From NCBI RefSeq assembly GCF_004124235.1, contig NZ_CP032487.1, forward strand, positions 620,001 through 684,000: a stretch of DNA of 64,000 bases. The letters are read 5' to 3'. The notes under the pieces were generated by a model. It saw only the letters and a program-made list of their open reading frames with translations, was not told where the DNA came from and did not search any database. The translations under genes were made by a program, and so were the position numbers. The stretch's first letter is position 1. Every line of letters begins with the position of its first letter. Positions 8,031 to 37,642 of this stretch are shown here, one piece after another. The stretch is from Yersinia hibernica. Its GTDB lineage: Bacteria > Pseudomonadota > Gammaproteobacteria > Enterobacterales > Enterobacteriaceae.

Positions 8031-8057
8031 GAAACGGTCCCACTGGGGGCCGTTTTC
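8031..8057 (+). terminator. Terminator-like hairpin after waaL
   Basis: GAAACGGTCCC pairs with GGGGGCCGTTTTC around a three-base loop, 38 bp after the waaL stop. The T-run is only four bases within the stem, so termination may be modest. Confidence 0.55.
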
Positions 8058-19266: not shown

Positions 19267-19359
19267 TGCCCGGTGAATTTGACATTGCAGGGCCGTGGTA
19301 CCAGAAATTTATTAGCAAACAACATTTATTAGCAAACAATAATGTGCCAGGAGAAAGTC

Positions 19360-19992
19360 ATGGGACTTACCAAACAACAGATTGTCAGTTGGTTGCAACT
19401 TTGTGCTGAGGTTTTCAGTGAACAACGGGATTTTCTGACACAGCTGGATACTGAAATCGGCGATGGTGACCACGGCCTGAATATGAATCGTGGTTTTAAT
19501 AAAGTGGTCGAAAAATTACCCTCCTTTGCTGATAAAGATATTGGTTTCATTCTGAAAAATACCGGTATGACCCTGCTTTCAAGTGTTGGCGGCGCGAGTG
19601 GCCCTCTGTTCGGCACTTTCTTTATTCGCGCAGCACAAAGTACCAACGCCAAGCAGAGCCTGGATTTGCCCGCAGTCTGCCAGATGTTTAAAGATGGTGT
19701 TGAAGGGGTGGTGATGCGCGGCAAAGCTGAGCCGGGTGATAAAACCATGTGTGATGTTTGGTGGGCGGTGGTGGCACAACTTGAACAGGCCAACCAGCAA
19801 GGGGTGCCGCTGGTGGATGCATTACAGCAAACTGTTGAACGCGCCCAGCTTGCATTGGCTGGGACTATCACCATGCAGGCGCGCAAAGGCCGTGCCAGTT
19901 ATCTTGGCGAGCGAAGCATTGGCCATCAAGACCCGGGGGCGACATCCGTGATGTTGATGATGCAGGCGCTGTGGCAGGTTGCTAGCCACTAA
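19360..19992 (+). CDS. dhaL: Dihydroxyacetone kinase ADP-binding subunit DhaL
   Basis: Carries a tightly bound ADP that is rephosphorylated by DhaM and passes the phosphate to dihydroxyacetone on DhaK. 210 residues, as in E. coli. The metal/ADP-binding aspartates are in DTEIGDGDHGLNMNRGF (about residues 28-44), and LSSVGGASGPLFGTFF is the conserved glycine-rich loop. ATG 19360 follows GGAGAAAG. The gene runs to within 30 bp of dhaM. Confidence 0.95.
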   Translation: MGLTKQQIVSWLQLCAEVFSEQRDFLTQLDTEIGDGDHGLNMNRGFNKVVEKLPSFADKDIGFILKNTGMTLLSSVGGASGPLFGTFFIRAAQSTNAKQSLDLPAVCQMFKDGVEGVVMRGKAEPGDKTMCDVWWAVVAQLEQANQQGVPLVDALQQTVERAQLALAGTITMQARKGRASYLGERSIGHQDPGATSVMLMMQALWQVASH

Positions 19993-20021
19993 TGTGGTTC
20001 ACAAGATTATCAGGAGGAAAG

Positions 20022-21455
20022 ATGGTCAATCTCGTTGTAGTTTCTCATAGCGCGCTGCTGGCTCAGGGTGTGGCCGAACTGGCACAGCAAATGACACAAG
20101 GTGGTTGCCAGCTCGCGGTGGCCGCCGGTGTAGACGACCTGGATCATCCTATCGGCACGGATGCTATTAAAGTGATGGAAGCCATTGAATCGGTTTATTC
20201 TCCATCAGGTGTATTGGTGCTGATGGATTTAGGCAGCGCATTACTCAGTGCTGAAACCGCACTGGAGTTATTAGACCCCGAGAGGGTGAAAAACGTGCAG
20301 CTTTGCGCCGCTCCACTGGTCGAGGGGACTCTGGCTGCGGTGGTTGCGGCCTCATCCGGGGCATCCTTGGACGAGGTGTGTGCTGAAGCAATGGGGGCGA
20401 TGGCGGCTAAAGCGGCACAGTTAGGTGAAAGTGTCAGCCCGCCCGCCAGGAGTGATGAAATGGCCAAGGCGGCCCCTGATGCACAGAGTGTGAGTTGGGT
20501 GGTGCGTAATCCTAATGGATTACATGTCCGCCCTGCGGCTAAATTAGTCGAAGTATTAGCGCCGTTTGCCGCAGATTTACTGCTGGAAAAAAATGGTCAA
20601 TGTGTTAATCCCCGTAGCCTGAATCAGCTCGCCATTTTGCAAGTACGTAAAGGCGATACCATTCGTTTACTGGCCAGCGGCGAGCAAGCAGGCGAGGCAC
20701 TGGATGCTTTTATGCAACTGGCCCATCAGCACTTTGGCGAATCTGTCACCACTGCCAGTGATAGTGGATTCACCGGCATAATGGTTCCTCGCCGGACGAT
20801 TACCGCGCCCATACTTCAATGGTTACCCGCCATTCCGGTCTTTTTACCGCGCACCATTAATGCTGAGAATATTGCTAACGAACAATTGCGTTTACATCAG
20901 GCTTTAGCGCACACCCTGGCTGACCTCCAGCAGCTGGCACGGCAGGCGGAACAGCAGATTGGTGCTCAGGCGGCCGATATTTTTACTGCACATGCCATGC
21001 TAATTGATGATGAAGAGCTTTACAGATCAATGGATAAACGGATAGAACAGCAACAGATTTGTGCGGAATCGGCATTACAGGATGAGTTAATGGCCATGGT
21101 GGCGGACTATCAGGCACTGAATGATGACTATCTGCGTGTTCGTGAGCTGGACATTCGAGATATTCTTAATCGCAGTTTAGGTCATTTGACGGGATTGCCG
21201 CCAGTGGCGATTTCAGTCGACAGCGAGATTTTATTATTGGCTGAGGAGTTATTCCCATCGCAAATGATTGGTCTGAATCACCAGCAAGTAAAAGGTATCT
21301 GTTTAAGTCACGGGCATATTCTTTCTCACAGTGCAATTCTGGCCACAGAATTGGATATTCCGATGTTAGTGGGGGCGACAGGTTGCCTTGAGGCCAGTCG
21401 TAATGGTCAAACAGCGTTATTGGATACCGCAACTGGAGCACTCAAACTCCAGTAA
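20022..21455 (+). CDS. dhaM: Dihydroxyacetone kinase phosphotransferase subunit DhaM
   Basis: Multidomain phosphoryl carrier from the PTS to DhaL-ADP. 477 residues (E. coli 472). Order: mannose-type EIIA domain with His9 (VVVSHSALLAQGV), HPr-like domain with His168 (NPNGLHVRPAAKLVE), and an EI N-terminal-like domain whose histidine is in GICLSHGHILSHSAILA. All three phosphorylatable histidines are present, so the relay looks intact. ATG 20022 follows AGGAGGAAAG; the longer frame from 19992 is ignored. Confidence 0.95.
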   Translation: MVNLVVVSHSALLAQGVAELAQQMTQGGCQLAVAAGVDDLDHPIGTDAIKVMEAIESVYSPSGVLVLMDLGSALLSAETALELLDPERVKNVQLCAAPLVEGTLAAVVAASSGASLDEVCAEAMGAMAAKAAQLGESVSPPARSDEMAKAAPDAQSVSWVVRNPNGLHVRPAAKLVEVLAPFAADLLLEKNGQCVNPRSLNQLAILQVRKGDTIRLLASGEQAGEALDAFMQLAHQHFGESVTTASDSGFTGIMVPRRTITAPILQWLPAIPVFLPRTINAENIANEQLRLHQALAHTLADLQQLARQAEQQIGAQAADIFTAHAMLIDDEELYRSMDKRIEQQQICAESALQDELMAMVADYQALNDDYLRVRELDIRDILNRSLGHLTGLPPVAISVDSEILLLAEELFPSQMIGLNHQQVKGICLSHGHILSHSAILATELDIPMLVGATGCLEASRNGQTALLDTATGALKLQ

Positions 21456-21487: not shown

Positions 21488-21516
21488 GATAGCGGCCTCA
21501 ATTCAGGGCCGCTATC
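21488..21516. terminator. Bidirectional hairpin between dhaM and the island
   Basis: GATAGCGGCC (21488-21497) pairs with GGCCGCTATC (21507-21516). The stop codon of the leftward glycosyltransferase lies in the loop. No T-run on either strand, but it sits exactly between the converging transcripts. Confidence 0.5.
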
Positions 21517-22853
21517 TGAGGAATTAAGCAACTCAGTGGCGTCAGAATTTGGTTTTTCCAGTTATAGCGATCTGCTATTAATGCAGCACTTGCTTGCCTA
21601 ATTTTATCTATTTCAAACTCAGTTAATTGGCAAACATGACGTATAACTTCCGCTAAATTTGCCGCATCACCCGGAATATGCACGAACCCATCAACACCCT
21701 CTTCAACTTGTTCACGCAGGCCACCAGAGTCGGCCACAATTAATAAAGCTCCCTGCTTTCTTGCTAACCAGCGTGATTCCATAGGAATAAGTCCATTCGG
21801 TTCATTTTCAGCAGACAGAATACATGCACGCGTATTACGCCACTGGATCAGACAAGCCATCAGTTCGCGATCAAACGAATTTATAATTGACGTATTTACA
21901 TCAAGCTGGCTGGCTAATGCGGATAATTCTGGCAAGACAGGGTCACTCACGATAACGGTATGTATATCATCGCCCAGATAACTCGCCGCTTTAAGCAACA
22001 AATCATAGCGCTTATAATATACTCCTCGCCCAAGAGTGACTGCCAGTGGGGAGTCGAGTGATATTCCATAAGCAGATAGCGTGTTGCAGATCTCTTGCTC
22101 ACTGCGTATCCGATACCACGGGTCACTGATATTTATCCCGGCGGGAACCGGTATAAATGTTTGTGGGTCAGCGCCATATTCTGAAACTAAGTGATCCGCC
22201 AGAAAATCGCTGATAGTGCCGAGCTTGATATTAGAATCAATCTTCGCCCATTGAATGGGTAATGATTCTGCCATCAGCCGTTCAGGATTGGGTAATGGCA
22301 TTTCATGATTAAATGCGGTGCCGTGGGAGACATAGATAATCTTTAGATTCACCTCTTCGACTGCGGCATGTAAGCTGGCAATTAAAGGTGTAAATGAGAA
22401 TGGCAGTTCATGACAGAATGCTAAAGTAATATCGTAATTCTCACTGATATCAATAATTTTGGCAGCAGCTGCAGCTGAGGATATCTTCCAGTTTTGTAAG
22501 TCACCAAGGAAAGCATCGCCGTAAGGCCATAAACATCCGACCCCATTACCCAAGGTCATATTTGGCACCGTTGAGAATGTTCCCCCCATCTGATTAATTC
22601 TTTCTATATAATAATTACGACAATCTGCATCAAAGAATGAATTATATTTGTTGTATGCAATTTCAATAAAATGAGGTTCTAACCTTATATCATACACAGC
22701 CAGTGAATCAATCACTTCAGGTAGAGCCTGAATTTGCCCTCTGATATAAGAGCCAACCCCACCAACAAAGATTTGAATACCTTCTGTGGATAGATGAATA
22801 ATACCTATTTTTAGATTGTTTTTTTTATAGATTGGAAATATGTTTCCTTGCAT
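21498..22853 (-). CDS. Glycosyltransferase, GT4-like (island gene 6)
   Basis: Predicted cytoplasmic sugar transferase of 451 residues. Seen: N-terminal Rossmann-type segment with the acceptor loop EGIQIFVGGVGSYIRGQ; C-terminal donor domain with LAVTLGRGVYYKRYDLLLKA; and the retaining-GT4 signature region SAENEPNGLIPMESRWLARK followed by LIVADSGGLREQVEEGVDG. These are the E-x7-E and nucleotide-sugar contacts of the glycogen-synthase/GT4 fold. Donor and acceptor are unknown. Last gene of the six-gene leftward operon, 52 bp after the carbamoyltransferase. More AT-rich than the neighbouring dha genes. Confidence 0.8.
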   Translation of the reverse strand: MQGNIFPIYKKNNLKIGIIHLSTEGIQIFVGGVGSYIRGQIQALPEVIDSLAVYDIRLEPHFIEIAYNKYNSFFDADCRNYYIERINQMGGTFSTVPNMTLGNGVGCLWPYGDAFLGDLQNWKISSAAAAAKIIDISENYDITLAFCHELPFSFTPLIASLHAAVEEVNLKIIYVSHGTAFNHEMPLPNPERLMAESLPIQWAKIDSNIKLGTISDFLADHLVSEYGADPQTFIPVPAGINISDPWYRIRSEQEICNTLSAYGISLDSPLAVTLGRGVYYKRYDLLLKAASYLGDDIHTVIVSDPVLPELSALASQLDVNTSIINSFDRELMACLIQWRNTRACILSAENEPNGLIPMESRWLARKQGALLIVADSGGLREQVEEGVDGFVHIPGDAANLAEVIRHVCQLTEFEIDKIRQASAALIADRYNWKNQILTPLSCLIPQIAALN

Positions 22854-22905
22854 ATAAAACCTCGAAATTTAAACGAGAAATATGATTTATAGGTATATAA
22901 ATTAG

Positions 22906-24615
22906 TTAACAGGTTATTTTCTTCTTCGATACTCTGTAGTTATTGATAAATAACAGATCCAAGCCACAGCTTAAAAATAGATTAATTGCATCCTTGGGGG
23001 TCTCGACTATTGGCATGCCTTTAATATTCAATGAGGTATTCAGTAATATAGGTATTTTAGTCTCATCAAAAAAAGCGGTTATCAATTTATGGAATTTTCT
23101 ATTGATATCTTCTTTAACCGTCTGGACTCGAGCAGTTCCATCAACATGGACAATTGAGGGAAGATCAGTATGGTATTGCTCTTTTACATAAGCAATAAAT
23201 AGCATGTAGTCACTATCATGATTTAAATGGAAATAGTCATGTACTTTTTCATGTAAAACAGCGGGGGCAAAAGGTCGGAAATCCTCCCGAAACTTCACAT
23301 TGGCATTAATGTGATCTTTCATTTGTGAACTGCGGGGGTCGGCCAAGATACTTCTATTTCCTAAGGCACGTGGCCCGAACTCAGACTCCCCTTGGAACCA
23401 GGCAATAACATGACCAGAGGCAATGGCTACCGCAGCCATAGTTTCAATATCTTCACAGTAAGCATATTCAATCTTATCCGCTTGTTTTTCAAGCTCGGCT
23501 GTCACGCTAATATCATTATAGTTTTTGCCAAAATAAGTTGCACCTGAATGCTTAATTCGCTCTTTTTTGAGGACTTCCAACCAGCCATAATAACAACATC
23601 CGATAGAAAGCCCATTATCGCCTGCTGCTGGTTGAATATATAGATTATCAAACTCACATCTATTAATGAGTTTTTCATTTGCTGTAGCATTTAATGCGAC
23701 CCCGCCGGCATAAGCAAAGTTTTTCATAGGATGAAGTTGATAGTAATAGTTGAACAGATAGAATAAGGCTTCTTCAAGTTGGGTTTGTGCCCAATAAGCC
23801 AGATCTGCATAATATTGGAAGTTATCGTTAAAATGTGTTGGGTGAGTATTTAGTAATGGGTCAATATTTTCCCACCAATCATTACGTAATATCACTTTCC
23901 CAGCACTGAAAAAGAAAGGTTGCCAATTAATAATATTCGCTCTGCCGTAGGGAGCTAACCCCATTAATTTACCTGCACAGTCGAGTTCACCGAAAATATA
24001 CAGTGCTATTCCTTCATAAAACTCGCCAATAGAATTTTCTATTTCCCATGTTGACGCAGGATAAATTTTTCTATCTTTCCGGTTCACCCAACGGGAAAAG
24101 TCTTTAAAGATGGGCATCATTTTACCACTTTGATAAATATAGTAGCTACAGGTTTCCCAGTATCGGTAGCGATTATTAAGATGAATAGTATCTGCGCCAG
24201 AGATATGGGTAATAATGTCATTGCAACTATCTGCACTGCCACCATGCCCATCAATAACGACCACCCCCATATCGTCAAAAGGTGATGTACCAATGGCACT
24301 ATAAGCATGAGCTAGGTGATGAGAAAGTGTGACAATAGGCACCATTGGCGGCAAAACGCGATTCTTCCGATATTCTAATTGCTCGCTAAAAAGTGGGTTA
24401 TGAGAGCTTTGCTCCACAATTAATGTGAGATCATTATATTTAATACCTGCAGCATCTAAGCAGTATTGAATTGTATCATTATCATTAAAGCCATCATGCT
24501 TTATTCTGGATATTCTTTCTTTCTCGATTGCGAATATAATTTCGCCGTCTTTCATTAAGCAGGTTGAACCATCGTGAGATAGAGCCGTGCCAAGAATGTA
24601 AATTGGTTTTTGCAT
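22906..24615 (-). CDS. O-carbamoyltransferase, NodU/CmcH family (island gene 5)
   Basis: Enzymes of this family move a carbamoyl group from carbamoyl phosphate via carbamoyl-AMP onto a hydroxyl of a sugar or antibiotic (TobZ on tobramycin, NodU on Nod factors, CmcH on cephamycin). 569 residues, full length. N-terminal Kae1-like domain: ILGTALSHDGSTCLM, metal-binding histidines in LSHHLAHAYSAIG (His99, His100, His103), VVIDGHGGSADS, and FAYAGGVALNATANEKLI. C-terminal YrdC-like domain: WFQGESEFGPRALGNRSILA and ILLNTSLNIKGMPIVETP. All hallmark motifs are intact. Acceptor unknown. Confidence 0.88.
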   Translation of the reverse strand: MQKPIYILGTALSHDGSTCLMKDGEIIFAIEKERISRIKHDGFNDNDTIQYCLDAAGIKYNDLTLIVEQSSHNPLFSEQLEYRKNRVLPPMVPIVTLSHHLAHAYSAIGTSPFDDMGVVVIDGHGGSADSCNDIITHISGADTIHLNNRYRYWETCSYYIYQSGKMMPIFKDFSRWVNRKDRKIYPASTWEIENSIGEFYEGIALYIFGELDCAGKLMGLAPYGRANIINWQPFFFSAGKVILRNDWWENIDPLLNTHPTHFNDNFQYYADLAYWAQTQLEEALFYLFNYYYQLHPMKNFAYAGGVALNATANEKLINRCEFDNLYIQPAAGDNGLSIGCCYYGWLEVLKKERIKHSGATYFGKNYNDISVTAELEKQADKIEYAYCEDIETMAAVAIASGHVIAWFQGESEFGPRALGNRSILADPRSSQMKDHINANVKFREDFRPFAPAVLHEKVHDYFHLNHDSDYMLFIAYVKEQYHTDLPSIVHVDGTARVQTVKEDINRKFHKLITAFFDETKIPILLNTSLNIKGMPIVETPKDAINLFLSCGLDLLFINNYRVSKKKITC

Positions 24616-24645
24616 AACTAATATCCTTATTAATTTATAGTATTG

Positions 24646-26145
24646 TCAGCTAAGTAAATAGGCGAGTCTGCGGGATAGTGCGAGTGTCGTTAATGATGGG
24701 TTGGCAGCACCTGGCCGTGGAAATGTACTGGGGCCGACAGCAAATAGATTACTGATGTGATTAAACTCATGATTGTCATTTAATATCGTCCCGAGGGGCA
24801 GAGTGCTACTTTCATGATTCTCTGTCCCCAGAGGACTAATCCAGGTTGTTGGTACATTATAATTGACAATTCTGGAAGGGGAGCGAAATTGATGGTGGAC
24901 ATCTCCCATGGTGCGGGCATGAATCATAAATCCTGTCTCAAAATCTAGAGGCTCAAAGGGTATTTTTTTATTTTCACACACTTCGCGCCAAAATATATTT
25001 AATTCATCTTTTTCTTTTTGTATTAGTATATTATCGTCATTTCCAAAGTCACATGAAATGGATAATGGTACAATATCATCATCTATTTTTATGTTAATAC
25101 ATCCATGAGTGGAAGGGATTTGTTCACCCATCGTCCATACCTCTAATTCAATACCAAAGTTGGATCTACTGATTGTAAAAAATAAATTAAATCTTTCTCC
25201 AGACATGCTGGGGCTGAAAAATATAGTATCGGGATAGCGGTCAATTAGCGCCTCAATTTTAGCCGGATTTTTATTATGCTCAAATGTGACATTAAATCCT
25301 TGCACAATATGATCAACAAGACCTGTTATTTTTTTCTTTGTAAAATCGCCTGAATCATAGAGGGCTTGAGCGGCTAAACGTGAGTTTTCAATAGTGCCTA
25401 AGGCAAGTACGCATTTATCGGCTAACACGTGATGTATTTTATTTGATGCAATTTCTCTTAATTTTGCACCAATGCATTTCCCATTTTTAATAATAAGCGC
25501 GACTGCTTCATATCCGGGGATAATGAGGGGGCTGTTCCTGAGTTTGTTATCCTCTTTCCAATAAGATAGGGGTGAATAAGCTTCCCAACGACCAGATTCT
25601 CCATGTATTTTGGTCGCTTGGGGGGTAACATTAAATTCAAAATGAGTGAATTTGAAAGAATAGTCAGCATTATCTTTTTTTTCAGCCCAGGCTAATATTT
25701 CCGATTGTACTTGACTATAAAGAGATGGGCCTCCTAACCAGCTCTCTGTAAGGTCACTGACAATCTTTGGCGGCCAATACTTGAGAATTTCGGCCTCTAT
25801 TGGCAAGATAACACCATGCCAGTAGAGTGAGCGGCCACCGACTCTTCGCCGTAAACAGGTTCCTTTTGAGAAATGAGGCTCACTTAAAGATAGCCATGAG
25901 CGGTAAGCATATTTATCAGATTCTTCATTTTTCCAAAGTTCATTGGCTTGCTGATATTCTTCTCCAGCATTAATGTGATTGCAATCATCCGCGGGCCCTG
26001 CCTCTATAACAACTATGTTTTCCACTTCTCTATTATTTAAATGTTTAGCTAACTCTAATCCTGACATTCCTCCACCTAATATCAGAATATTGATTTTGTC
26101 AGGGATCTCTGCCACCTTTTTTGGGGTCGTCTCTATGATATTCAT
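24646..26145 (-). CDS. GMC-family FAD oxidoreductase (island gene 4)
   Basis: Flavoprotein expected to oxidise an alcohol (often a sugar or cyclitol hydroxyl) to a carbonyl. 499 residues. The dinucleotide-binding motif ILILGGGMSGLELAKHL (Gly24-Gly29) is followed by VIEAGPADD. RRVGGRSLYWHGV matches the GMC flavin loop. Near the C-terminus NHESSTLPLGT provides the catalytic His (444) and AANPSLTTLALS the conserved Asn (482). Some aminoglycoside pathways use GMC-type dehydrogenases on aminocyclitols or amino sugars. The substrate here is unknown. No signal peptide, so cytoplasmic. Confidence 0.82.
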   Translation of the reverse strand: MNIIETTPKKVAEIPDKINILILGGGMSGLELAKHLNNREVENIVVIEAGPADDCNHINAGEEYQQANELWKNEESDKYAYRSWLSLSEPHFSKGTCLRRRVGGRSLYWHGVILPIEAEILKYWPPKIVSDLTESWLGGPSLYSQVQSEILAWAEKKDNADYSFKFTHFEFNVTPQATKIHGESGRWEAYSPLSYWKEDNKLRNSPLIIPGYEAVALIIKNGKCIGAKLREIASNKIHHVLADKCVLALGTIENSRLAAQALYDSGDFTKKKITGLVDHIVQGFNVTFEHNKNPAKIEALIDRYPDTIFFSPSMSGERFNLFFTISRSNFGIELEVWTMGEQIPSTHGCINIKIDDDIVPLSISCDFGNDDNILIQKEKDELNIFWREVCENKKIPFEPLDFETGFMIHARTMGDVHHQFRSPSRIVNYNVPTTWISPLGTENHESSTLPLGTILNDNHEFNHISNLFAVGPSTFPRPGAANPSLTTLALSRRLAYLLS

Positions 26146-26170
26146 GATGTATCCTTCTAAAGAAGAAAGT

Positions 26171-27613
26171 TTATTTGAAAACTAATGGATTTAAATTAGA
26201 ATTGGATAACTCACCTCGTAATTTATGTATAAATTCATGCCATGGTTTTTCGGGGAATTTTGATTGAACCAGCAGTTTATTACTGGCTAGCTGCATCTTA
26301 ATATCTACTTCACCCGCAGCCTGTTTACGCATCCATTCAAATAATTGCTGTGCCGCATTCTCAGGCGCATTGGGATTCACTTTTATATGATGATATTCGC
26401 AGCCATAAAATTCAGTGAAAGCAGTATATTCAGTGACGGCGCAAGGAATGCCTGCGATAGCTGCGAGGGCGGGGCCCAAACCGACACTTTCAACATTTTC
26501 GACATTGGGGGTGAATAAAACAGCCCCGGATAAAGCATGACATATGATAAGCAAGTCAATCTCATCTAAATACCAACGATTATCTTTACTCTTATAAGTT
26601 TGAAGCGGAACCTCATCTAAAAATATAATATCATCATCGAGATGCAAAGCATTAACTTGCATTTTTAGACAAAGTGCATACTCAGAGTCTTCATTCATAT
26701 TGCCAAATATAAATAACTTAGGTGTGCATAACCCTTTATTTTTATAAATATTAAGCAGAGAGCTAAAAACATCAATTGATATTTCGATACCTTTGACTCT
26801 AAATACCCTAACAGGAACAATAATTATGGGCGAACCTACGGCTATATTATGTTGATTTAAAAATTCACTATGAATCTCATTAAATCCAAATTTATCTATA
26901 GAAGGTAATATATTGGGAATGACATCGACCGCCAGTTCTGTTGGGTAGTATCTGCATTCATTGGCCAGAGCCTCTGAGGCAACTATCCATTTAGTATAGT
27001 TATTATTTTGTGGTATCGGAGTCAATGCATTGGGAGTTTGTGGGTATAGCCTTTCTGTATGCTCATAAATACTATAGCTACCAAAAAGATCATGCTCCCA
27101 GAAAATTACACCGCCATAGTTTTTTTTCGCCCAATACTCTTTTGCAGCATGATGGATAGCCAGGTTTACCGGAACAGCATCGGAAAGTGTCATGTTTAAG
27201 CAGAATAACCAGTCAATTTCGTTATCCTCAAGCCAATTGATAAAGTAACTTTTATAGTGTTCAGAAATTGCATGTATCTTTTTTTTAATATCGGTTGTTT
27301 CCGACACTGTTAAATATTCATATTTAGCAATGTTACTCCTTAACTGCGTAAATTCATTGCCGAAATCTTCTTCACACATTGAATACTGATGAATAGAACT
27401 CACTTTCATCCATGTCGGATAGTATGAACCTTGGCTCCCGTGAGGGAAGAATTTTATTTTATCTGGCCGCCAGGAAAATCCCAGATCAGTAGGGATTTCA
27501 TGAATTATAATATTACTTTCTATGGCTATTTTAGCTACATTTCTAAATATAGTTAATAGACCACTGGTTGGGAGACCATCTCCTGATATAATCGCCCACT
27601 TCATTTTCTTCAT
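26171..27613 (-). CDS. Glycosyltransferase, GT4-like (island gene 3)
   Basis: A 480-residue protein with a two-Rossmann layout: MKWAIISGDGLPTSGLLTIF at the N-terminus; GVIFWEHDLFGSYSIYEHTE mid-protein; then the donor domain IIIVPVRVFRVKGIEISIDVF, KLFIFGNMNEDSEYALCLK and the C-terminal VESVGLGPALAAIAGIPCAV, equivalent to the GT4 sugar-nucleotide contact region. It is not close to the second glycosyltransferase of the cluster, so two different sugars or positions are likely (inference). ATG 27613 lies 16 bp after the transporter stop. Confidence 0.75.
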   Translation of the reverse strand: MKKMKWAIISGDGLPTSGLLTIFRNVAKIAIESNIIIHEIPTDLGFSWRPDKIKFFPHGSQGSYYPTWMKVSSIHQYSMCEEDFGNEFTQLRSNIAKYEYLTVSETTDIKKKIHAISEHYKSYFINWLEDNEIDWLFCLNMTLSDAVPVNLAIHHAAKEYWAKKNYGGVIFWEHDLFGSYSIYEHTERLYPQTPNALTPIPQNNNYTKWIVASEALANECRYYPTELAVDVIPNILPSIDKFGFNEIHSEFLNQHNIAVGSPIIIVPVRVFRVKGIEISIDVFSSLLNIYKNKGLCTPKLFIFGNMNEDSEYALCLKMQVNALHLDDDIIFLDEVPLQTYKSKDNRWYLDEIDLLIICHALSGAVLFTPNVENVESVGLGPALAAIAGIPCAVTEYTAFTEFYGCEYHHIKVNPNAPENAAQQLFEWMRKQAAGEVDIKMQLASNKLLVQSKFPEKPWHEFIHKLRGELSNSNLNPLVFK

Positions 27614-27629
27614 TATTTATCTCCTGATA

Positions 27630-28844
27630 TTAACTGCTTAGTCGAGTTGATTTTATGGATAGAATATTAATTAAGAAAAAGATTAATATGCAACTGATTA
27701 ATATGGCTATAAAAGCAGTCCTCAGAGAGGTGAAATCTGCTAGTACGCCGATTAAAGGGGGGAAGACCAGTAAACCAATTCTTGACATCCAAGTGGCAAA
27801 AGTAACTCCGCTGGTCGCATTTATATTGGGCAATTGACCAATAAATGATATCGTTAATGGGAATACTACTGATATGCCTAAACCAATGAGAGAAAAACCT
27901 AATATTGTAAAAAAAGATGAGTTAATGGTTATTATTAATGCTACGCCAGATATCGATAATAATATTCCATATTTTAATGTCTGTATCTTCCCCCAGTTGT
28001 TGGTGAAATAATCACCAAATATACGCCCAATAACCATGCATATTTGGCATGCGAGATAAGGCAAGCCAGAAATGACGGAAGAGACGTTATAAATATCTTT
28101 CATATATATTGCTCCCCAGATGCTTGCGGTTTCTTCTATATTGCATGTAAATACTAGAATTATTAAAGATATAATGTAGAGTTTGGTTTCTAGTAACATT
28201 TTTTTCCGTTCTTTATGCGATTTTATATTTAAGTAATTATAGCTAGTTGCAGATGCTTTTTTAAATAGCACCATATATATGGTGAACATTGTTAAATTTA
28301 TCATTAATAATATTAGGTTGAATTGCTCCATTGAAAAACCGAAGCCAATTGCCATTACAGCAATAAACCCTCCCCATATTGTCCCGATACTCCCGGCACC
28401 ATGAACTCTATTAATTAAACTCTGTCCATATGTTCTTTGTATATTCAGGGCCTGAACATTGATGCATGTATCGCCCCAAGAATCAAAAATACCAAACAGA
28501 AAAAGTAATAATGTTATTTCATACCATGATGATGAAAATGCAACGGTTGATATTGCAATGACTAATAATAAAAATGTTATATTTGTTGCCCAATACAGCC
28601 CTATAAAATTGATAAACTTTTTCGATAGTAAACCAAAAATTATCGATCCAGCTGGAATAGCCGATACCATTATTCCAACCATATAGTTGCTGAGATTAAA
28701 CTTTTCTTTTAAATCTGGAATCCAGGGAACCAAGCTTGCATAGGTTACGCCATGAATAAAAAAGAGTATCGATAATATGATACTTTGTTTTTCTTGTCTT
28801 TTTCTTATCATCATTACATTAGCTTCATAGGAGGTTACATTCAC
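27630..28844 (-). CDS. MFS transporter, YbjJ-like (island gene 2)
   Basis: Twelve-segment major facilitator protein of 404 residues, resembling the YbjJ/fucose-permease-like branch (FFIHGVTYASLVPWIPDLKE in segment 1, GIFDSWGDTCINVQALNIQ in segment 4, RVHGAGSIGTIWGG in segment 5). Placed inside a biosynthetic operon it is best read as the exporter of the product, though import of a precursor cannot be excluded. ATG 28844 overlaps the dioxygenase stop (ATGA), showing tight coupling. An alternative start pair lies at 28814/28811. Confidence 0.8.
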   Translation of the reverse strand: MNVTSYEANVMMIRKRQEKQSIILSILFFIHGVTYASLVPWIPDLKEKFNLSNYMVGIMVSAIPAGSIIFGLLSKKFINFIGLYWATNITFLLLVIAISTVAFSSSWYEITLLLFLFGIFDSWGDTCINVQALNIQRTYGQSLINRVHGAGSIGTIWGGFIAVMAIGFGFSMEQFNLILLMINLTMFTIYMVLFKKASATSYNYLNIKSHKERKKMLLETKLYIISLIILVFTCNIEETASIWGAIYMKDIYNVSSVISGLPYLACQICMVIGRIFGDYFTNNWGKIQTLKYGILLSISGVALIITINSSFFTILGFSLIGLGISVVFPLTISFIGQLPNINATSGVTFATWMSRIGLLVFPPLIGVLADFTSLRTAFIAILISCILIFFLINILSIKSTRLSS

Positions 28845-29707
28845 GATATATAATTGAAATCAAATCCTAATATATTTCTATATCCCATTTTTATTGATGG
28901 GTCCTTTAATTTTATAGGTGTGACTTGATGCCAAATCGTCGAATTTTTATCGATATGAAATAATCCCTCGCCACACTCTAGTGTATGGGATTTGATGAGC
29001 ATATCTTTTTCAGCACAATAGAGTTTACTTACACCTCCTTCAATATTATATTTATCAATGACTAATGCGGAAACAATATAATTACTCCCATCCTGATGTA
29101 ACCCTTCCGGCGAATTAGAAACTGAGTGTGTTGTATTATCGATAATTAAAGATACTTGATGGCAAGTGACTTCAATTTTTTTTATACCTCTCTGCGGTTC
29201 GCATTCACATAACATTTCGATGAATTTTTTAATCAGTATCTTCAATGTCGGAGAATGAACTGTGGTTTTATCCATTGGTGGAAATCGGCGTATTAATTGT
29301 CTTAAATCTAATTGATGATCAGCATGTTGAGTAAAGCGAGTTAATGAAGGAAGATTAATATGGTTAACTTCCCATTTATTATCAATATATTCAACAATAA
29401 ATTGACTAATACCCCTTTTTCTAAAAGGTTTATACGCGTAAAAAGTTTTTTTATCTGGCATGGATAATGCGGATATAAGGGCTTGAATATTTTCGGGAAC
29501 CAAACTTTCATCAAGATAGTGTTGAGCTTCCTGTAGAATTATTTTTCTATGTGCAGAATATTTACTGATGAGGAATCTTAATTGGGATAATTTTATATCA
29601 TTAGTGTCCCAAGCTAATTTATTAAATGATAATTCATCTTTAATTGATTTTATATTTACATCAAATTCATTTATATTGAACTGAATGATTTTATATTTAA
29701 TTCCCAT
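28841..29707 (-). CDS. 2-oxoglutarate/Fe(II)-dependent dioxygenase (island gene 1)
   Basis: Likely hydroxylase of 288 residues with the iron facial triad His204-x-Asp206 (EGLHQDGSNYIVSALV) and His260 (STIWHQVTPI), plus the 2-oxoglutarate-binding Arg277 in MGYRNILGF. The C-terminal half resembles the 2OG-Fe_Oxy_2 (PF10014) family, some members of which hydroxylate free L-amino acids such as isoleucine. The first 140 residues are not recognisable and may determine substrate. First gene of the operon; ATG 29707 has only a weak upstream GGATAAT. Confidence 0.78.
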   Translation of the reverse strand: MGIKYKIIQFNINEFDVNIKSIKDELSFNKLAWDTNDIKLSQLRFLISKYSAHRKIILQEAQHYLDESLVPENIQALISALSMPDKKTFYAYKPFRKRGISQFIVEYIDNKWEVNHINLPSLTRFTQHADHQLDLRQLIRRFPPMDKTTVHSPTLKILIKKFIEMLCECEPQRGIKKIEVTCHQVSLIIDNTTHSVSNSPEGLHQDGSNYIVSALVIDKYNIEGGVSKLYCAEKDMLIKSHTLECGEGLFHIDKNSTIWHQVTPIKLKDPSIKMGYRNILGFDFNYIS

Positions 29708-30202
29708 AATAAAATTATCCTATCCCACTAGGTTTCATTGATAAGTTATATTAATGTTAACAAGCAATAAAAAAAATATATATATTAATTAAGTTATTCT
29801 ATAATGGTGAGTCTGATTTTTTATTTCGATATTTTTATATCTCAAAGAACTCTTTTCAGCAAGCTTTTATAAATATGCGTCAATATATATATTGATCAAA
29901 TTATATGTTATTGTTTTTTATTGCTTGCTTTATGAAGACATATTTAACCCGTAAAGCTTATATGTAACAGGTTTTTTTACTCATCTCGTTAATTGAAATG
30001 AAATCTAATTTATACCAATTAAGTTAAGAAAATAAAAAATTGTTTTTATGATTTTAATCATAATGTCAAAAGTGTGATCCAAGTTATTGGAGCGATGTTT
30101 CAATTTGTGTATTATGCTTTTATAAAAATCTAACTTTTACTTTATTAATAATAACGCAACGTGAGTTTAATCTGGCGAATATCAGTCACTAAGGATCACG
30201 AA
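29708..30202. other. AT-rich divergent control region between the island operon and the pectinesterase
   Basis: No gene on either strand in about 500 bp of low-GC sequence. It must hold the promoter for the leftward six-gene operon and for the rightward pectinesterase. Visible: the palindrome ATAAAAA-ATTG-TTTTTAT at 30032-30049 and a half-good CRP site TGTGA-TCCAAG-TTATT at 30073-30088. I see no tRNA, repeat or transposase remnant. Confidence 0.7.
30032..30049. promoter_or_regulatory. Palindrome upstream of pectinesterase, possible KdgR-type site
   Basis: ATAAAAA and TTTTTAT flank ATTG, with some resemblance to KdgR boxes that control pectin genes in enterobacteria. Several consensus positions do not match, so this is only a candidate. 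Confidence 0.3.
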
Positions 30203-31288
30203 ATGCCAATTCATTTTCTGGGTAAAACATTATTGTCAGGATTGATGTCGTTTGCTGCATTGGGGGCTGCGCATGCCGCTCAATATAATGCGGTGGTTTC
30301 CACCACTCCTCAGGGGAGCGAATTTTCTTCGATTAATATGGCATTGAAATCAGCACCTATGGATGATTCTCCTTTTATTATCTTCCTCAAGAATGGGGTT
30401 TATACCGAGAGACTTGAGGTGACCCGCAATAATGTCACGCTAAAAGGGGAGACCCGTGATGGTACGGTAATCGCTGCCAATACTGCTGCTGGAATGCTCA
30501 ATCCACAAGGCGAGAAATGGGGGACTTCGGGCAGTAGCACCGTACTGGTTAATGCGCCAAACTTTACAGCGGAAGATCTTACCATTCGAAATGATTTTGA
30601 TTTTCCGGCCAATAAAAAGAAAGCAGATAGTGACCCTACAAAATTAAAAGATCTCCAAGCGGTGGCATTATTGTTAGCCGAAAATAGTGATAAAGCGCGT
30701 TTTAAAAAAGTGAAACTTCAGGGCTACCAAGACACACTTTATAGTAAGACGGGTAGCCGGAGTTATTTCACTGATTGTGAAATCAGTGGTCATATTGATT
30801 TTATTTTTGGCTCCGGTGTCATGGTTTTTGATCATTGCGATATTGTTGCGCGTGACCGCAGTGATATTGAGCCGCCATATGGTTATATCACCGCTCCGAG
30901 CACCTTAACCACATCACCTTATGGTCTGATATTTATTAACAGCCGGCTGACTAAAGAGCCCGGAGTTCCTGCTAAAAGTTTTGCTTTGGGGCGGCCATGG
31001 CACCCGACGACCACTTTTGACGATGGCCGTTATGCTGATCCGGCCGCGATTGGTCAGGCCGTATTTATCAATACGACGATGGATGACCATATTTACGGTT
31101 GGGATAAAATGTCAGGTAAAGATAAGCAAGGCGAGAAAATCTGGTTCTATCCGCAAGATTCACGTTTTTTTGAGGCGAATAGCAAAGGAGTAGGGGCCGA
31201 AATGAATGAGGGACGTCGCCAGTTATCTGCTGAGCAGCTTAAGGCATTCACATTGCCAATGATATTCCCTGACTGGGCAGTTGATTGA
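30203..31288 (+). CDS. Pectinesterase (pectin methylesterase), secreted
   Basis: Family CE8 enzyme removing methyl groups from plant pectin. 361 residues including a signal peptide (MPIHFLGKTLLSGLMSFAAL, cleavage probably after AHA at residue 26), so exported to the periplasm or outside. Right-handed beta-helix motifs in order: LKGETRDGTVIAANTAAG, KLKDLQAVALLL, KVKLQGYQDTLYSKTGSRSY (catalytic Gln and Asp), CEISGHIDFIFGSG (catalytic Asp) and SFALGRPWHP (catalytic Arg). All are present. AAGGATC precedes ATG 30203. The stop is two bases from the dhaR stop on the other strand. Confidence 0.92.
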   Translation: MPIHFLGKTLLSGLMSFAALGAAHAAQYNAVVSTTPQGSEFSSINMALKSAPMDDSPFIIFLKNGVYTERLEVTRNNVTLKGETRDGTVIAANTAAGMLNPQGEKWGTSGSSTVLVNAPNFTAEDLTIRNDFDFPANKKKADSDPTKLKDLQAVALLLAENSDKARFKKVKLQGYQDTLYSKTGSRSYFTDCEISGHIDFIFGSGVMVFDHCDIVARDRSDIEPPYGYITAPSTLTTSPYGLIFINSRLTKEPGVPAKSFALGRPWHPTTTFDDGRYADPAAIGQAVFINTTMDDHIYGWDKMSGKDKQGEKIWFYPQDSRFFEANSKGVGAEMNEGRRQLSAEQLKAFTLPMIFPDWAVD

Positions 31289-31290: not shown

Positions 31291-33210
31291 TTAAATCGGC
31301 AGCGATTCGCCCCCCTTAAATTGGTGGATATCCAGCCGATGGAGTTTCACTTTTCGCCATAATGTGGTGCGGCCGATCCCCAATAAGGCCGCCATTTCAT
31401 TCAATTGACCTTGGCATACTAACGCGGCGCGGATAATAGCCTGTCTTTCTAATTCTTGCAGTGATAAGACCGGCTGGGGTTGGGGCATATCCGGCTCCAA
31501 TAGCAATTTTTCGCCGAGCAGATGCTCGGGTAAGTCATTGAGATTTATTCGGTTGTTGCGACAGGCCATGGCGGCCCTTTCCACCACACTTTTCAGTTCC
31601 TGATCATTTCCGGGCCAAGGATATTGGCATAGCTGGCGAATGACACTTTCGTCCGGCTGATATTGGCAGTGAAAATGCTGCCCCAGACTGGCTAGCGTGT
31701 GCTGAACCAGGAGTGGGATATCTTGCTGACGTTGGCGCAAAGGGGGGATATGGAGCTCAAAAGATTGCAGGGTATAGAACAGTTGACGCCGAAAGCGGCC
31801 TTGTTTGACAAGCAAGGGCAGGTCAGCGCCGGTGGCCGTAATTATCCGAACATCGACCGGAATGACTCGATTGGAGTTCACCCGCATCACCATGCCGGTT
31901 TTAACAATTTGTAGCAGCGCTGATTGCATTTCTGGCGACAAATATTCGACTTGTTCCAGATATAAAGTGCCGCCGTTGGCTAACTCAAACTTGCTCGGCT
32001 GCCCTGATTCACCTTCACTGGCATCACTGCCAAGGAACTCCCGCGCCATCAGATTTTGTGGTAATGCCTGACAATTCAATACGATGTAAGGGCCGGATGC
32101 GCGATTACTGGCATTGTGAATGGCTTGCCCTAATTGCTGCTTACCCACCCCTTCTTCGCCATGCAGTAAAATGGGGTGGCGGCCTTTAGCGGCCTGTTTG
32201 CCGTAACGAATTAAGCGCCGCATTTCCAGTGATGCGACCGGCATATCATCAAATGTATAACTGGCTCGCCCTAATTGGCTATGAAGCATTTGCCTCAGTA
32301 ATTCTTGCGGATGCAGCAGTGCAATAAAACCGCAGCGGTCACCATCGGGAATGGGTTTGAGGGTCAGCAAGGCAGGAATAAATTGTTGCTGATTCTCGAA
32401 GGTCACCTCCACATGGCTGAGCGGAGTTCGGTGCAAAATAGCCTGGCTCAGCAAGGCCGGGAGGGTGAGTAAATCAGTGACCGGCTTGCCAAGGCTATTC
32501 GTTTCATTGAGTTGCAAAATGGCGGCTGCCCGGCGGTTAAGGTACAGCAAACAACCCCGCTGATCCCACGCCATTACGCCGTCTTCAACCCCATCTAGCA
32601 GGGCATTGAGTTCATTCAGATGGCGGTTAGTTTCTGCCAAGAGGGTATCGGCGTGGAGGTAATTACCAATTTCTCGGGCAATTGCTAATGTCAGTGGCAG
32701 GTCACTGGCGGCGTTATCAAGTAGCAAACAGCCCAAAACAATGACGGCCCGCTGGCGGCCACTGTTGTCATACACCGGGGTGGCACAAAAATGCCACGGA
32801 TGCAGGGCCTGTTTGAAATGTTGCTGGCCACTGACCTGTATCGGGTGCCCTTCGGCGATGGCCAGTGCCGGGGCATTGGTGCCAATCAATCCCTCGGCCC
32901 AATAACTGCCGCAATCAATCCCCAACTCGCGAAGCTGGCCCATGGTCTGCGGATGGCCGCATTGCCACAAAGTGCAGCCACTTTCATCAAGAATTAACAG
33001 GACGCAATGGCGCGCCTCCATATATTCATAAGCATCTTCCAATGCCGCCTGGCCGAGCACCAGTAAGTCATTTTTCCGCTGACAAATTGACTGGAAAGTG
33101 GCCCCTACCGCGCGGTGTGGTACCCGCCATTGCTGGGCTTGCATCAGTTTTTGGCAGCGCCGCCACGACCCCACTAGCGCTGGCGTGGTGACCGGTTCAG
33201 TGCTGTTCAT
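31291..33210 (-). CDS. dhaR: Transcriptional activator of dhaKLM, DhaR
   Basis: Enhancer-binding-protein-like regulator that senses the DhaK/DhaL state and activates dhaKLM. With ATG 33210 it has 639 residues, the same as E. coli DhaR. N-terminal GAF/PAS-type sensing region ([20 protein letters not shown]), AAA+ domain with Walker [13 protein letters not shown] and [12 protein letters not shown], then a Fis-type HTH ([20 protein letters not shown]). The GAFTGA loop of sigma-54 activators is absent ([14 protein letters not shown]), as in E. coli DhaR, which works at a sigma-70 promoter. It lies 10 kb from dhaKLM, whereas E. coli has them adjacent and divergent. Its start lies inside scrR. Confidence 0.92.
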
Positions 33211-34231
33211 TGAGCGCCTTGGAACCCGGATGCCGCCAATGGATTTGGCCCGGCAGAATGAGCTTATTTTGTGCCAAAGGTGTTTCAGCAATCAGGGCGG
33301 TTATCATCTCGAAACTATGGCGAGCCAGCCCTTGGCAATCCTGGGCGATGCTATCTATTTTTAATGGCAAACAATCAAACAGATAGTGGTCATCAAAGCT
33401 GCAAAGATGAATATCACTGCCCATTAACTGATGCTGATTAAGATAGCGCAGCACCCCCTCCAGCAGGCCACAGGCCGCGGTAAATACCGCTTTGGGCGGG
33501 CGGCCCAATTGGGCGCACAACTGGGCAATCATTTCATAGCCGGAGCTGGGTAAATAATGGCCGTTGAGGATCCATTCCGGGCGGCATTCGATACCTGCTT
33601 GTTTCAGCCCTTGCTGGAAGCCGGCTAAACGGTCTCTGGTCGGCGAGATCCGCGGCTGGCCGCCGAGAAAGTAAAACTCTTGCGGATGTTGGCGCGCCAC
33701 GTTTTCGACCAATGTCGTGGTAGAGGAGAGAGAGTCGGTGATAACCAACGGCAGCTCTGACTCACCCATCAAGCGGTCCATCTGCACCACCGGCAGGCGG
33801 CCATTAATTTTTTGATATTCGCCGTCATTGAGTTGGCTGGAGGCCACAATCAGGCCATCAACTTGGCGCTGTACCAAGCTGTTGACGGCCATTATTTCTT
33901 GGCTAGGGTTTTCGTCGGTACAGGCGATAAGCAGCTGTAATCCTGCTTCACGACACAACATTTCCAGCTCACGCGAAATAAGCGCAAAGCCGTAGTTAGT
34001 CATCTCTGGCACCACCAACCCGATGGTGTGGCTGCGCGGTGAGCGCAGAGCGCGGGCGTGAAAACTTGGCTGGTAGTTATGTTCGCCGGCCAGAGCAATA
34101 ATGCGATCCCGCGTTTCGTCCGAAACACGATATTCCTTGCTACGTCCATTGAGCACCAGACTGGCGGTCGACTTCGACACCCCAGCCAGTTTGGCAATAT
34201 CGTTGATGGTAATGCGTTTATTGTTTTTCAC
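33197..34231 (-). CDS. scrR: Sucrose operon repressor ScrR (LacI family)
   Basis: LacI/GalR repressor, 344 residues. N-terminal HTH and hinge ([20 protein letters not shown]), then a periplasmic-binding-like effector domain. Similarity to ScrR of Klebsiella sucrose operons is strong and long ([53 protein letters not shown]). It would respond to fructose or fructose-1-phosphate. Its own targets nearby are ruined (scrK and scrA fragments), yet the gene is intact. The 3' end overlaps dhaR by 14 bases. Confidence 0.88.
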
Positions 34232-35575: not shown

Positions 35576-36676
35576 TCAGAGGGATGATTCAACCTTTGAT
35601 AAATTTTCTTCAGCAAATGCGACCTTATTGCGCCCATCTTTTTTAGCTCGATAAAGTGCATCATCCGCAGCTTTAAGTGAGGAGGCCAGATCATAGGATT
35701 GCAAGGGGGATATCCCGGCGCTGAGTGTGACGGTTGTGGACACTTTATGATTGAAAAAATGTGGAATATCAAGGCTTAAAACTCGCTGTCTTACCCGTTC
35801 AGCTAACTGGGTGGCATACTCTTCGCTCACATGTGTCAACAACACTAAAAACTCTTCACCACCATAGCGCACCACGATATCACGCGAACGGACAGCATCG
35901 CGAATTGCTGCCGCCACTCGCACTAATGCCTGGTCTCCCATGGTATGGCCGTAGTTATCGTTATAGGCCTTAAAATGGTCGATATCCAGTAGTAACACAT
36001 AATGATTACCGGGGGATTGAGCGAGTAATGTCTCCAGTTTATTCTCTAACCCACGGCGGTTATATAAACTGGTGAGTGGGTCTATCATACTTAAATCACT
36101 GAATTTTTCTCTTTCATTATAAAGACGTGCAACAAGCTTACGAGTGAAGTTATCACTGCGGCGTAACATCAAATGATGCAAAGAGAAGCCAATCAGGGGC
36201 AGCATAATCGTGAAGATGATGCGGAAAATATTTTGGAAGTCATCCAAAAAAATAACAGTCAATGCCGAAGGGGCGGTATGCAAACAAAAAGCGAGAAAGT
36301 TATCCGATAGGGCAATGGTGCCAATAAAGAAAATCGTAAACAGACTGAGTAATAAGTAGTTATTTTCATTTGTTCCCAGATACTCAAATTTGAGAATGAT
36401 TTGCCAGGCCCAAAGTGCGCCCATGATAATTGAAAATAAATTCAATTTATCGGCATAATTCTTCGAAATGAAAATCAAATATGCAGCTGCGCTTAGACTG
36501 ATAACCGTGATCATAATGATAGGTAATGTCATGGCGGGTGTTTCAGGGGAGGGTAATATCATACTAAAAATAGCTGACGACGCATTAAGAAATAGAAAAA
36601 GCAGTAAAGAGAGCCGATGCTTACTTTTCAGAAGCTGATCGTAGGAATGGCTATTCATGTTCAATTCACTCTGCAT
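35576..36676 (-). CDS. Membrane-anchored diguanylate cyclase (GGDEF)
   Basis: Makes cyclic di-GMP from two GTP, favouring biofilm and reducing motility. 366 residues: about six to seven hydrophobic segments in the first 190 residues, then a GGDEF domain (about 205-360) with LSMIDPLTSLYNRRGLENKL, VLLLDIDHFKAYNDNYGH (metal-binding Asp) and the active loop RYGGEEFLVLL. An RSRD inhibitory site sits exactly five residues before GGEEF, so product inhibition is expected. No EAL domain. The membrane part is a sensor of unknown input. Monocistronic, with 320 bp of intergenic sequence upstream. The alternative start ATG 36658 would drop six residues. Confidence 0.92.
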   Translation of the reverse strand: MQSELNMNSHSYDQLLKSKHRLSLLLFLFLNASSAIFSMILPSPETPAMTLPIIMITVISLSAAAYLIFISKNYADKLNLFSIIMGALWAWQIILKFEYLGTNENNYLLLSLFTIFFIGTIALSDNFLAFCLHTAPSALTVIFLDDFQNIFRIIFTIMLPLIGFSLHHLMLRRSDNFTRKLVARLYNEREKFSDLSMIDPLTSLYNRRGLENKLETLLAQSPGNHYVLLLDIDHFKAYNDNYGHTMGDQALVRVAAAIRDAVRSRDIVVRYGGEEFLVLLTHVSEEYATQLAERVRQRVLSLDIPHFFNHKVSTTVTLSAGISPLQSYDLASSLKAADDALYRAKKDGRNKVAFAEENLSKVESSL

Positions 36677-36998
36677 AATGGCGTGCTGTCAGTAGAAAAA
36701 TAAACAATACCCTCATGAAGCCCCTTTATTTGAGCATCATGATAAATAGTTATTTTAAGTGATTATTTTTGTTTGAAGCGTTCTAACATTGCTTTGGGAG
36801 TTTTCTTAGTCAAAATTACCATTTTTGTTTCAGCCTGTCATCATGATGTCGATCAACTAATCAATTTACTCCCCTAAATCTGATATATCGATGGTATCAA
36901 TGGCTCAAGATCGCCTAAACCACAGGTTTTGTCATGACAAGTTGATGATGCAGACTCTGCTAGAGTGATATATGATATTGGTTATCATTATCACTTGA
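36677..36998. other. Intergenic region upstream of the cyclase and of yjjZ
   Basis: No gene visible. It contains a 12-bp perfect palindrome TTGTCATGACAA at 36929-36940 and, at the right end, the Fur box for yjjZ. Confidence 0.6.
36974..36992. promoter_or_regulatory. Fur box upstream of yjjZ
   Basis: GATATTGGTTATCATTATC matches the Fur consensus at 16 of 19 positions and lies about 20 bp before the yjjZ start. Binding of Fe-Fur would block the promoter. Confidence 0.75.
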
Positions 36999-37010
36999 GT
37001 GAGCCTCATT

Positions 37011-37295
37011 ATGATTACAGCCAGATTATCAGCTTACCGTTCATGGGGGATAAGTGCTTTATTGAGTCGTGGGATGTCCAGTGGCTGGGGGATGTTACTG
37101 CCGGTTGCTTTGCTCGTGGTATTGGATTGGGCTGATATCACAGTGGATCAGTTACGAGTGCTGATTATGGTCGCAATGCTGGCCACGGTGAGTATGCTCT
37201 ATCATGTAAGGTTGCGCCACTTCCTGCTACTGCCATCTTGTCTGGCACTTTTAGCCGGTATAGCCGCGATATTGATGCACAATGGTATCCATTGA
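37011..37295 (+). CDS. yjjZ: YjjZ-like small membrane protein (DUF1435)
   Basis: Small hydrophobic protein of 94 residues, about three membrane segments, with SGWGMLLPVALLVVLDWADI, LYHVRLRHFLLLPSCLALLAG. It resembles E. coli YjjZ, whose gene lies beside fhuF and leuQPV; here too it neighbours the leucine tRNAs, but no fhuF is present on the left. Function unknown; the Fur box implies iron-responsive expression. ATG 37011 has GAGTGAG seven bases upstream. A GTG at 36999 is a possible longer start, within seven bases of the Fur box. Confidence 0.75.
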   Translation: MITARLSAYRSWGISALLSRGMSSGWGMLLPVALLVVLDWADITVDQLRVLIMVAMLATVSMLYHVRLRHFLLLPSCLALLAGIAAILMHNGIH

Positions 37296-37350
37296 CACAA
37301 CAAAACTATTGAAGAAAGGATGGATTTGCAGCTGATATGAGAAATCATCG

Positions 37351-37437
37351 TGGTGCGAAGGGAGGGACTTGAACCCTCACGTCCGTAAGAACACTAACAC
37401 CTGAAGCTAGCGCGTCTACCAATTCCGCCACCATCGC
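37351..37437 (-). tRNA. tRNA-Leu(CAG), copy 3 of 3 in transcription order
   Basis: 87 bases including an encoded CCA. The minus strand starts GCGATGGTGGCGGAATTGGT, the anticodon loop reads CTTCAGGTG (anticodon CAG), there is a long variable arm as expected for class II tRNA-Leu, and the T loop is GGTTCAAGTCC. Equivalent to leuQPV of E. coli. Confidence 0.98.
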
Positions 37438-37498
37438 CCAAATGATTTCTTACTGTCTATTTTGCAGAGAATAAAACTTAGGATTTATATCACCAGCT

Positions 37499-37585
37499 TG
37501 GTGCGAAGGGAGGGACTTGAACCCTCACGTCCGTAAGAACACTAACACCTGAAGCTAGCGCGTCTACCAATTCCGCCACCATCGC
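37499..37585 (-). tRNA. tRNA-Leu(CAG), copy 2 of 3
   Basis: Identical over all 87 bases to the copies at 37351 and 37643, with CCA encoded. Separated from its neighbours by 61 and 57 bases of unrelated spacer, so probably one precursor transcript cut by RNases. Confidence 0.98.
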
Positions 37586-37642
37586 ATGTGCTGTGCAATA
37601 TAAATCTTTACTGCTGAAGTTGTTGATTGAAAAAGAAATGTT

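Follow-up and report, generated by a model that had tools for sequence, protein, structure and literature searches.

In the window analysed here, which is the whole 64-kb stretch of Yersinia hibernica DNA at 620001-684000 of its contig, six open reading frames, all of them intact, occupy positions 21498-29707 of the minus strand (Table 1). Profile searches give their order of transcription as OX, MFS, GTB, GMC, CT and GTA. Read 5′ to 3′ along the operon, the gaps between them are -4, 16, 25, 30 and 52 bp, in agreement with the original prediction of six leftward genes spaced by at most 52 bp; however, the 4-bp overlap of OX and MFS reads GTGA, and not ATGA as had been stated. The start codons used for the gaps, the GC values and the dN/dS values are guesses placed near the homologous start, and in the MFS gene an alternative ATG lying 30 bp further in may be the true one. 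The GC fraction of the operon genes runs from 0.304 (OX) to 0.419 (GTA). The operon had been described as more AT-rich than its flanks, which holds against dhaL, dhaM and dhaR (0.510-0.530), while the pectinesterase is intermediate at 0.449. The nearest named relatives of the window are from Yersinia. Repeats within the island are short imperfect pairs only, and an Rfam scan returned three tRNAs and nothing else.

Table 1. Genes and other features of the locus, with positions counted from the first letter of the window
Feature	Position	Strand	Description
Gene 1 (OX)	28841..29707	-	Fe(II)/2-oxoglutarate dioxygenase, PF10014; Pfam 94 bits, PDB 9dqp match
Gene 2 (MFS)	27630..28844	-	MFS transporter, putative exporter; MFS_1 73.1 bits; start codon uncertain
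Gene 3 (GTB)	26171..27613	-	divergent GT4-type glycosyltransferase; non-Yersinia named relatives actinobacterial
Gene 4 (GMC)	24646..26145	-	pyranose-oxidase-like FAD alcohol oxidoreductase; conserved His444, Asn482
Gene 5 (CT)	22906..24615	-	O-carbamoyltransferase, TobZ/NovN/NodU family
Gene 6 (GTA)	21498..22853	-	GT4 glycosyltransferase, distant LmbT relative; EX7E pair E351/E359
Promoter-like block	29833..29863	-	TTGC(C/T)G - 17 - TATAAA, ~125 bp 5′ of the OX start codon
dhaL + dhaM, left flank (host dha locus)	19342..21455	+	convergent with the operon; NCBIfam equivalogs
Pectinesterase, PemA-like, outside the operon	30161..31288	+	divergent neighbour; variably present
dhaR, regulator of the dha locus, right flank	31291..33291	-	NCBIfam NF008485, 1016 bits

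Upstream of OX, the promoter-like block is kept in 17 of 17 aligned Yersinia upstream regions, with a majority fraction of 0.92 over 30 bp against a mean of 0.50 for the non-coding upstream part. This suggests that the whole six-gene block may be transcribed from there. A scan for consensus promoters found 46, against 40.0 ± 6.1 in shuffled sequences, which is no excess; since the conserved block was absent from its list, the argument for the block is its conservation.

Families and residues of the encoded proteins

The match of OX to PF10014 lies far above the cut-off of 23.1 bits, and the match to 9dqp has an E-value of 2.7e-7. Its HQD, distal WH and YRN stretches are invariant in 17 Yersinia rows, and we take the HQD together with the distal H to be the metal-binding residues. 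Members of PF10014 hydroxylate free L-amino acids (excerpt of PMC3684760). CT carries both Pfam domains of a carbamoyltransferase above their cut-offs (Carbam_trans_N and Carbam_trans_C at 232.8 and 106.6 bits; cut-offs 27 and 24), and it matches TobZ at E 3e-65 and the novobiocin enzyme at E 1.2e-65. On plasmids, CT has 309 matching records, and no GMC gene is annotated near the matches in the three plasmid contexts examined.

The GMC protein scores 23.2 bits against GMC_oxred_C, below the cut-off of 24.6, and has the GMC fold and the His/Asn catalytic pair; the 50 Foldseek matches listed for it are pyranose and C-glycoside oxidases. In a quick tree, the Yersinia enzymes fall in a group of 23 rows together with GTA-linked enzymes (support 97), and the window enzyme lies outside a clade of 45 rows that holds the streptidine-linked enzymes (P0073, P0069). 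This placement weighs against an aminoglycoside-like pathway with a cyclitol core, in which imported inositol would be oxidised by GMC, glycosylated by both GT4 enzymes, hydroxylated and carbamoylated, and which we consider rather unlikely. In its favour, genes for a StrS-type aminotransferase, an amidinotransferase and a DHQ-synthase-like protein accompany the GMC homologue in a single gene run in Streptomyces sp. NBC_00853, and this homologue shares the 45-row clade with the one from S. mashuensis, a streptomycin producer. GTA also shows a weak match to MshA, an inositol-phosphate transferase (33.7 bits; cut-off 462.5). In Nocardia sp. NBC_01377, the gene run that includes a distant relative of GTA (26%) also encodes an aminotransferase, a TauD dioxygenase and an FAD oxidoreductase. 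In the tobramycin gene table, TobQ, which has an 89% match annotated as a GMC family oxidoreductase, is listed beside TobZ (excerpt of PMC8304502), so that a GMC-type dehydrogenase accompanies an O-carbamoyltransferase as in genes 4 and 5 here. The operon differs in having neither cyclitol synthase nor aminotransferase; an amidinotransferase is likewise absent from the six genes, and the genome, which has one DHQ-synthase-family gene, gave no match to inositol-phosphate synthase, although a cyclitol core might possibly be imported from outside. Because the cyclitol and amino-transfer genes are missing and the GMC enzyme lies outside the clade, a plain 2-DOS or streptidine aminoglycoside cluster was rejected. 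The aminoglycoside link first proposed for this DNA is supported at the family level for GMC and CT; a true aminoglycoside is not supported.

GTB matches the GT4 profile below the Pfam cut-off, with a GT-B fold and the donor-site residues of GT4 present. It is closest to BshA, which has been solved with L-malate and with N-acetylglucosaminyl-malate. Among 394 sampled Enterobacterales genomes, GTB turned up in three, all of them Yersinia, and among 398 sampled Pseudomonadota in one, its own genome; tblastn against plasmids with GTB, and also with an actinobacterial GTB, gave no match, nor did a scan of viral contigs with P0203. At least four of the best 120 of 230 GTB relatives are fused to dioxygenases. 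Two of these carry a TauD-type domain, whose closest matches are GntD, an enduracididine hydroxylase (340 and 300 bits; cut-off 345), and VioC, an arginine hydroxylase (289 and 268 bits; cut-off 418.6), and two others carry a PhyH domain. The core had been given as a sugar, a cyclitol or an amino acid, and because relatives of GTB are fused to amino-acid hydroxylases, a hydroxy amino acid is the likelier of these and a sugar or cyclitol less likely. The same fusions argue against the tailoring of a surface glycan or compatible solute, such as a modified capsule, an O-antigen side group or a glycosylglycerate-type osmolyte, a reading to which we give little credence. It would account for the two GT4 enzymes in the operon and for weak matches to mannosylglucosylglycerate synthase and EPS transferases, but no polymerase, flippase, lipid-carrier transferase or NDP-sugar gene was recognised among the six.

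GTA matches the LmbT structures 8il0/8ixp at E 1.3e-29. It matched in 43 of the 398 sampled Pseudomonadota, the only full-length match being its own and the next best 28% over half the protein, and plasmid tblastn returned matches of 26-27% in Embleya and Nocardia only. LmbT, from the lincomycin pathway, is an ergothioneine S-glycosyltransferase (excerpt of PMC12945683), and this relationship is what favours thiol S-glycosylation as in lincosamides, where GTA would use ergothioneine or another thiol as the acceptor of a sugar. The arginine at the LmbT Arg260 position is kept in 33 of 33 GTA rows, whereas the ergothioneine-binding Trp101 is apparently not conserved, its position holding Leu in 32 rows and Ile in one, and the Gln313 position holds Phe in 32 of 33. 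Because the alignment has a gap just before the Trp101 position and the GTA rows share an invariant Trp122 six residues beyond it, the Trp101 comparison is tentative. Also against this reading, PF10017, which we take to be the family of EgtD, has no match in the genome, though it is a family that matches in E. coli as well. S-glycosylation of ergothioneine by GTA appears unlikely, and thiol S-glycosylation as an account of the operon very improbable indeed.

Actinobacterial relatives of GMC, GTB and GTA

In searches of 5.8 billion proteins, in which many hits are unnamed, the named relatives of GMC, GTA and GTB outside Yersinia are actinobacterial among the rows listed, with one exception for GTA, a metagenome bin called 'bacterium'. 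Identities to the listed non-Yersinia relatives are 33-43% for GMC, 39-52% for GTA and 38-44% for GTB. Linkage was read from contigs of equal length (at least 5 kb), with Yersinia rows and contigs under about 2.5 kb dropped. Counted in this way, relatives of GMC and GTB share at least 13 contigs, those of GMC and GTA at least 3 and those of GTA and GTB at least 6, compared with means of 0.07, 0.008 and 0.011 when the lengths were jittered. These counts, and that of the fusions, are lower bounds, since the best 120 of 253 GMC matches and the best 120 of 230 GTB matches were visible and proteins longer than 1.75 times the query were not candidates. Relatives of all three lie on equal-length contigs in Streptomyces sp. 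NPDC004752 and NPDC094034 and in Micromonospora sp. NPDC050686; these sets hold homologues of three of the six operon proteins (41-51% identity), and to our knowledge they have no known product. The GMC and GTB relatives of Nonomuraea carry the consecutive locus tags ABT294_13565/13570, and an 811-residue GTB fusion (P0229) and a GMC homologue (P0062) are on contigs both 24998 long.

The alignments combined the sequence from the window with 93 of 120 listed matches (A1, and again A2) or with 32 of 42 (A3). In the GTA tree Yersinia stands next to a group of 12 rows, of which those with names are from Streptomyces or Micromonospora (99/93), while the placement of Yersinia in the GTB tree is not resolved (support 41). 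Judged by their sequences, GMC, GTB and GTA share ancestry with linked actinobacterial genes. The named relatives, the linkage and the GTA and GMC trees make a transfer from actinobacteria into Yersinia likely, and the AT-rich make-up of the operon suggests that such a transfer was old or indirect.

Inheritance within Yersinia

GMC is present in 19 of 25 Yersinia genomes (18 of the 24 other than our own) and OX in 20. All 18 other GMC-bearing loci have the same gene order, with dhaL-dhaM on the GTA side; of the 16 loci uncut by a contig end, 15 have dhaR on the OX side, and in genome G022 (locus L059) it is reduced to fragments. The pectinesterase was matched in 12 of the 25 genomes, in one of them weakly. 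Each of the six genes is a single tblastn match in 14 of the 18 loci. MFS is in two pieces in G021, GMC and GTB are split in G010, and a contig end falls inside GTB in G002 and G017. Genome G006, which lacks GMC, retains OX alone; the gene lies at the end of a contig and is divided between two frames. Five genomes (G001, G003, G009, G012 and G014) have neither GMC nor OX; the distance from dhaM to dhaR is about 70-215 bp in four of them, and G014 has the pectinesterase about 340 bp from dhaM. On a DhaR tree of 21 rows (midpoint root, several open forks; G002, G006, G017 and G022 not included), the island-less G001, G009 and G012 form one side, and G003 and G014 sit among species that carry the island, so that a minimum of three changes is needed, which one gain and two losses would fit.

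Median dN/dS is 0.136 for OX, 0.160 for MFS, 0.127 for GTB, 0.128 for GMC, 0.061 for CT and 0.110 for GTA, with a maximum of 0.207 across the six genes, after pairs whose dS reached or passed 1.5, and two GTB rows interrupted by a stop in the frame used, were left out. The six genes have been inherited as one block, under purifying selection. Their arrangement is not due to chance, since the order is the same in all 18 loci and dN/dS is low; unlinked genes in relatives, which the original prediction had named as a refuting result, were not seen in Yersinia.

A proposed pathway and its nearest parallels

By the families of its proteins, the operon probably builds and exports a small molecule that is sugar-decorated and carbamoylated. 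We think, with moderate confidence, that the specialised metabolite made by its genes is a small carbamoylated glycoside, built without PKS or NRPS on an amino-acid core. In the scheme that we infer, with its co-transcription, amino-acid core, substrates, order of steps and direction of transport, OX would hydroxylate an amino acid from primary metabolism, either free or as a close derivative, and GTB would place a sugar on the new hydroxyl. GMC would then turn one of the secondary ring alcohols of this sugar into a ketone, CT would put a carbamoyl group onto a sugar hydroxyl, GTA would add a second sugar, and the MFS protein would export the product. Hydroxylation, oxidation, glycosylation and carbamoylation of a small core had been foreseen from the sequence, and the predicted functions would bear this out, with the exporter putative; so too for a core from primary metabolism, as the operon contains no core-building enzyme, PKS or NRPS. 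The claim that no product with this gene set has been described agrees with searches of open-licence PMC papers, in which none of the titles and abstracts listed describes the set or its product. Taken as a whole, the earlier interpretation is partly supported.

More tentatively, and with some doubt, we suggest a new PKS- and NRPS-free class of carbamoylated keto-glycosides of hydroxy amino acids, whose core of OX or another hydroxylase, GTB and GMC would be spread through Actinobacteria, would have reached the ancestor of most Yersinia in one transfer, and would be kept under selection in pathogenic and environmental species as an exported molecule. If these readings are true, many Yersinia species (going by GMC in 19 of 25), including Y. 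enterocolitica, would make an exported small molecule for which our searches gave no description, along a compact pathway that has its core enzymes in common with actinobacteria. As a tractable model, the operon would then represent a biosynthetic family without PKS/NRPS signature genes, one that could escape searches built on those signatures, and it would raise the question of what use the compound is to Yersinia.

The operon would be a new version of the glycoside pathways that are built from tailoring enzymes. In bleomycin the sugars are attached to beta-hydroxyhistidine on an NRPS/PKS backbone, in which the operon differs, and we know of no GMC enzyme in the bleomycin module, whereas the operon has one. 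Pantoea natural product 3 was also considered as a candidate. In the bleomycin disaccharide module (BlmE, BlmF, BlmD) a hydroxylase, a glycosyltransferase and a carbamoyltransferase act on an amino-acid-derived core (excerpt of PMC7017467), and the likeness of the module to the operon is one of gene logic only. The excerpt of PMC3684760 names no glycosyltransferase, GMC enzyme or carbamoyltransferase for the short Hil/IDO operons; like OX and MFS, these join a hydroxylase of PF10014 to an exporter, which is either an MFS protein or RhtA.

Apparently damaged copies of the operon and a different gene set in Yersinia

The six-gene operon looks broken in some of the Yersinia genomes (loci L064, L067 and L070): the gene for the MFS transporter lies in two pieces in G021, those for the pyranose-oxidase-like GMC flavoenzyme and the glycosyltransferase GTB are both split in G010, and the sole remnant in G006 is the gene for the PF10014 dioxygenase OX, which is found in two frames.

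A different gene set, flanked by gldA and a gene of AcrB size, occupies the far side of dhaKLM in G014, a Yersinia genome from which the operon is absent. Its carbamoyltransferase matches that of the window, CT, at 36% over the C-terminal part.

Plasmid neighbourhoods of relatives

Relatives of the operon's proteins were also found on plasmids (Table). The carbamoyltransferase of Streptomyces sp. BB1-1-1 matches CT at 35%. For the homologues of GMC, the row on the Streptomyces sp. NBC_00853 plasmid is apparently a plasmid-borne aminocyclitol pathway, and the genes on the Roseibium aggregatum plasmid possibly make up another unstudied pathway.

Other features of the window

In the 30% GC stretch that follows the Wzy_C/O-antigen-ligase-like ORF, there is no ORF of at least 200 aa. 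The pectinesterase that adjoins the operon is patchy across Yersinia, with matches in 12 of the 25 genomes, one of them weak and partial.

Table. Features of the window and of the loci compared with it
Feature	Location	Content or setting
Nocardia sp. NBC_01377 plasmid	L073:7356-15397	Gene run: distant relative (26%) of glycosyltransferase GTA, StrS-type aminotransferase, FAD oxidoreductase, TauD dioxygenase, further glycosyltransferases
Streptomyces sp. BB1-1-1 plasmid	L072:1619-22066	Carbamoyltransferase, TauD dioxygenase, glycosyltransferases, MFS genes, aminotransferase, condensation-domain protein
Streptomyces sp. NBC_00853 plasmid	L037:10245-16479	One row: DHQ-synthase-like gene, StrS aminotransferase, "streptomycin biosynthesis protein", inosamine-phosphate amidinotransferase, GMC enzyme
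Roseibium aggregatum plasmid	L038:11986-25296	GMC homologue; nearby radical SAM protein, DegT aminotransferase, three phytanoyl-CoA dioxygenases, GT9, sugar-phosphate isomerase
G014 gene set	L069:16715-20000 and L118	Nitroreductase-family protein, another carbamoyltransferase, further putative MFS-like ORF
Wzy_C/O-antigen-ligase-like ORF, 239 aa, with the stretch after it	window 7274-9000	ORF ahead of the 30% GC stretch
PemA-like pectinesterase	window 30161-31288	Adjoins the operon
GGDEF protein	window 35576-36676	In AT-rich stretch by the tRNA-Leu(CAG) genes
Three tandem tRNA-Leu(CAG) genes	within window 35576-37729	Adjoining the AT-rich stretch
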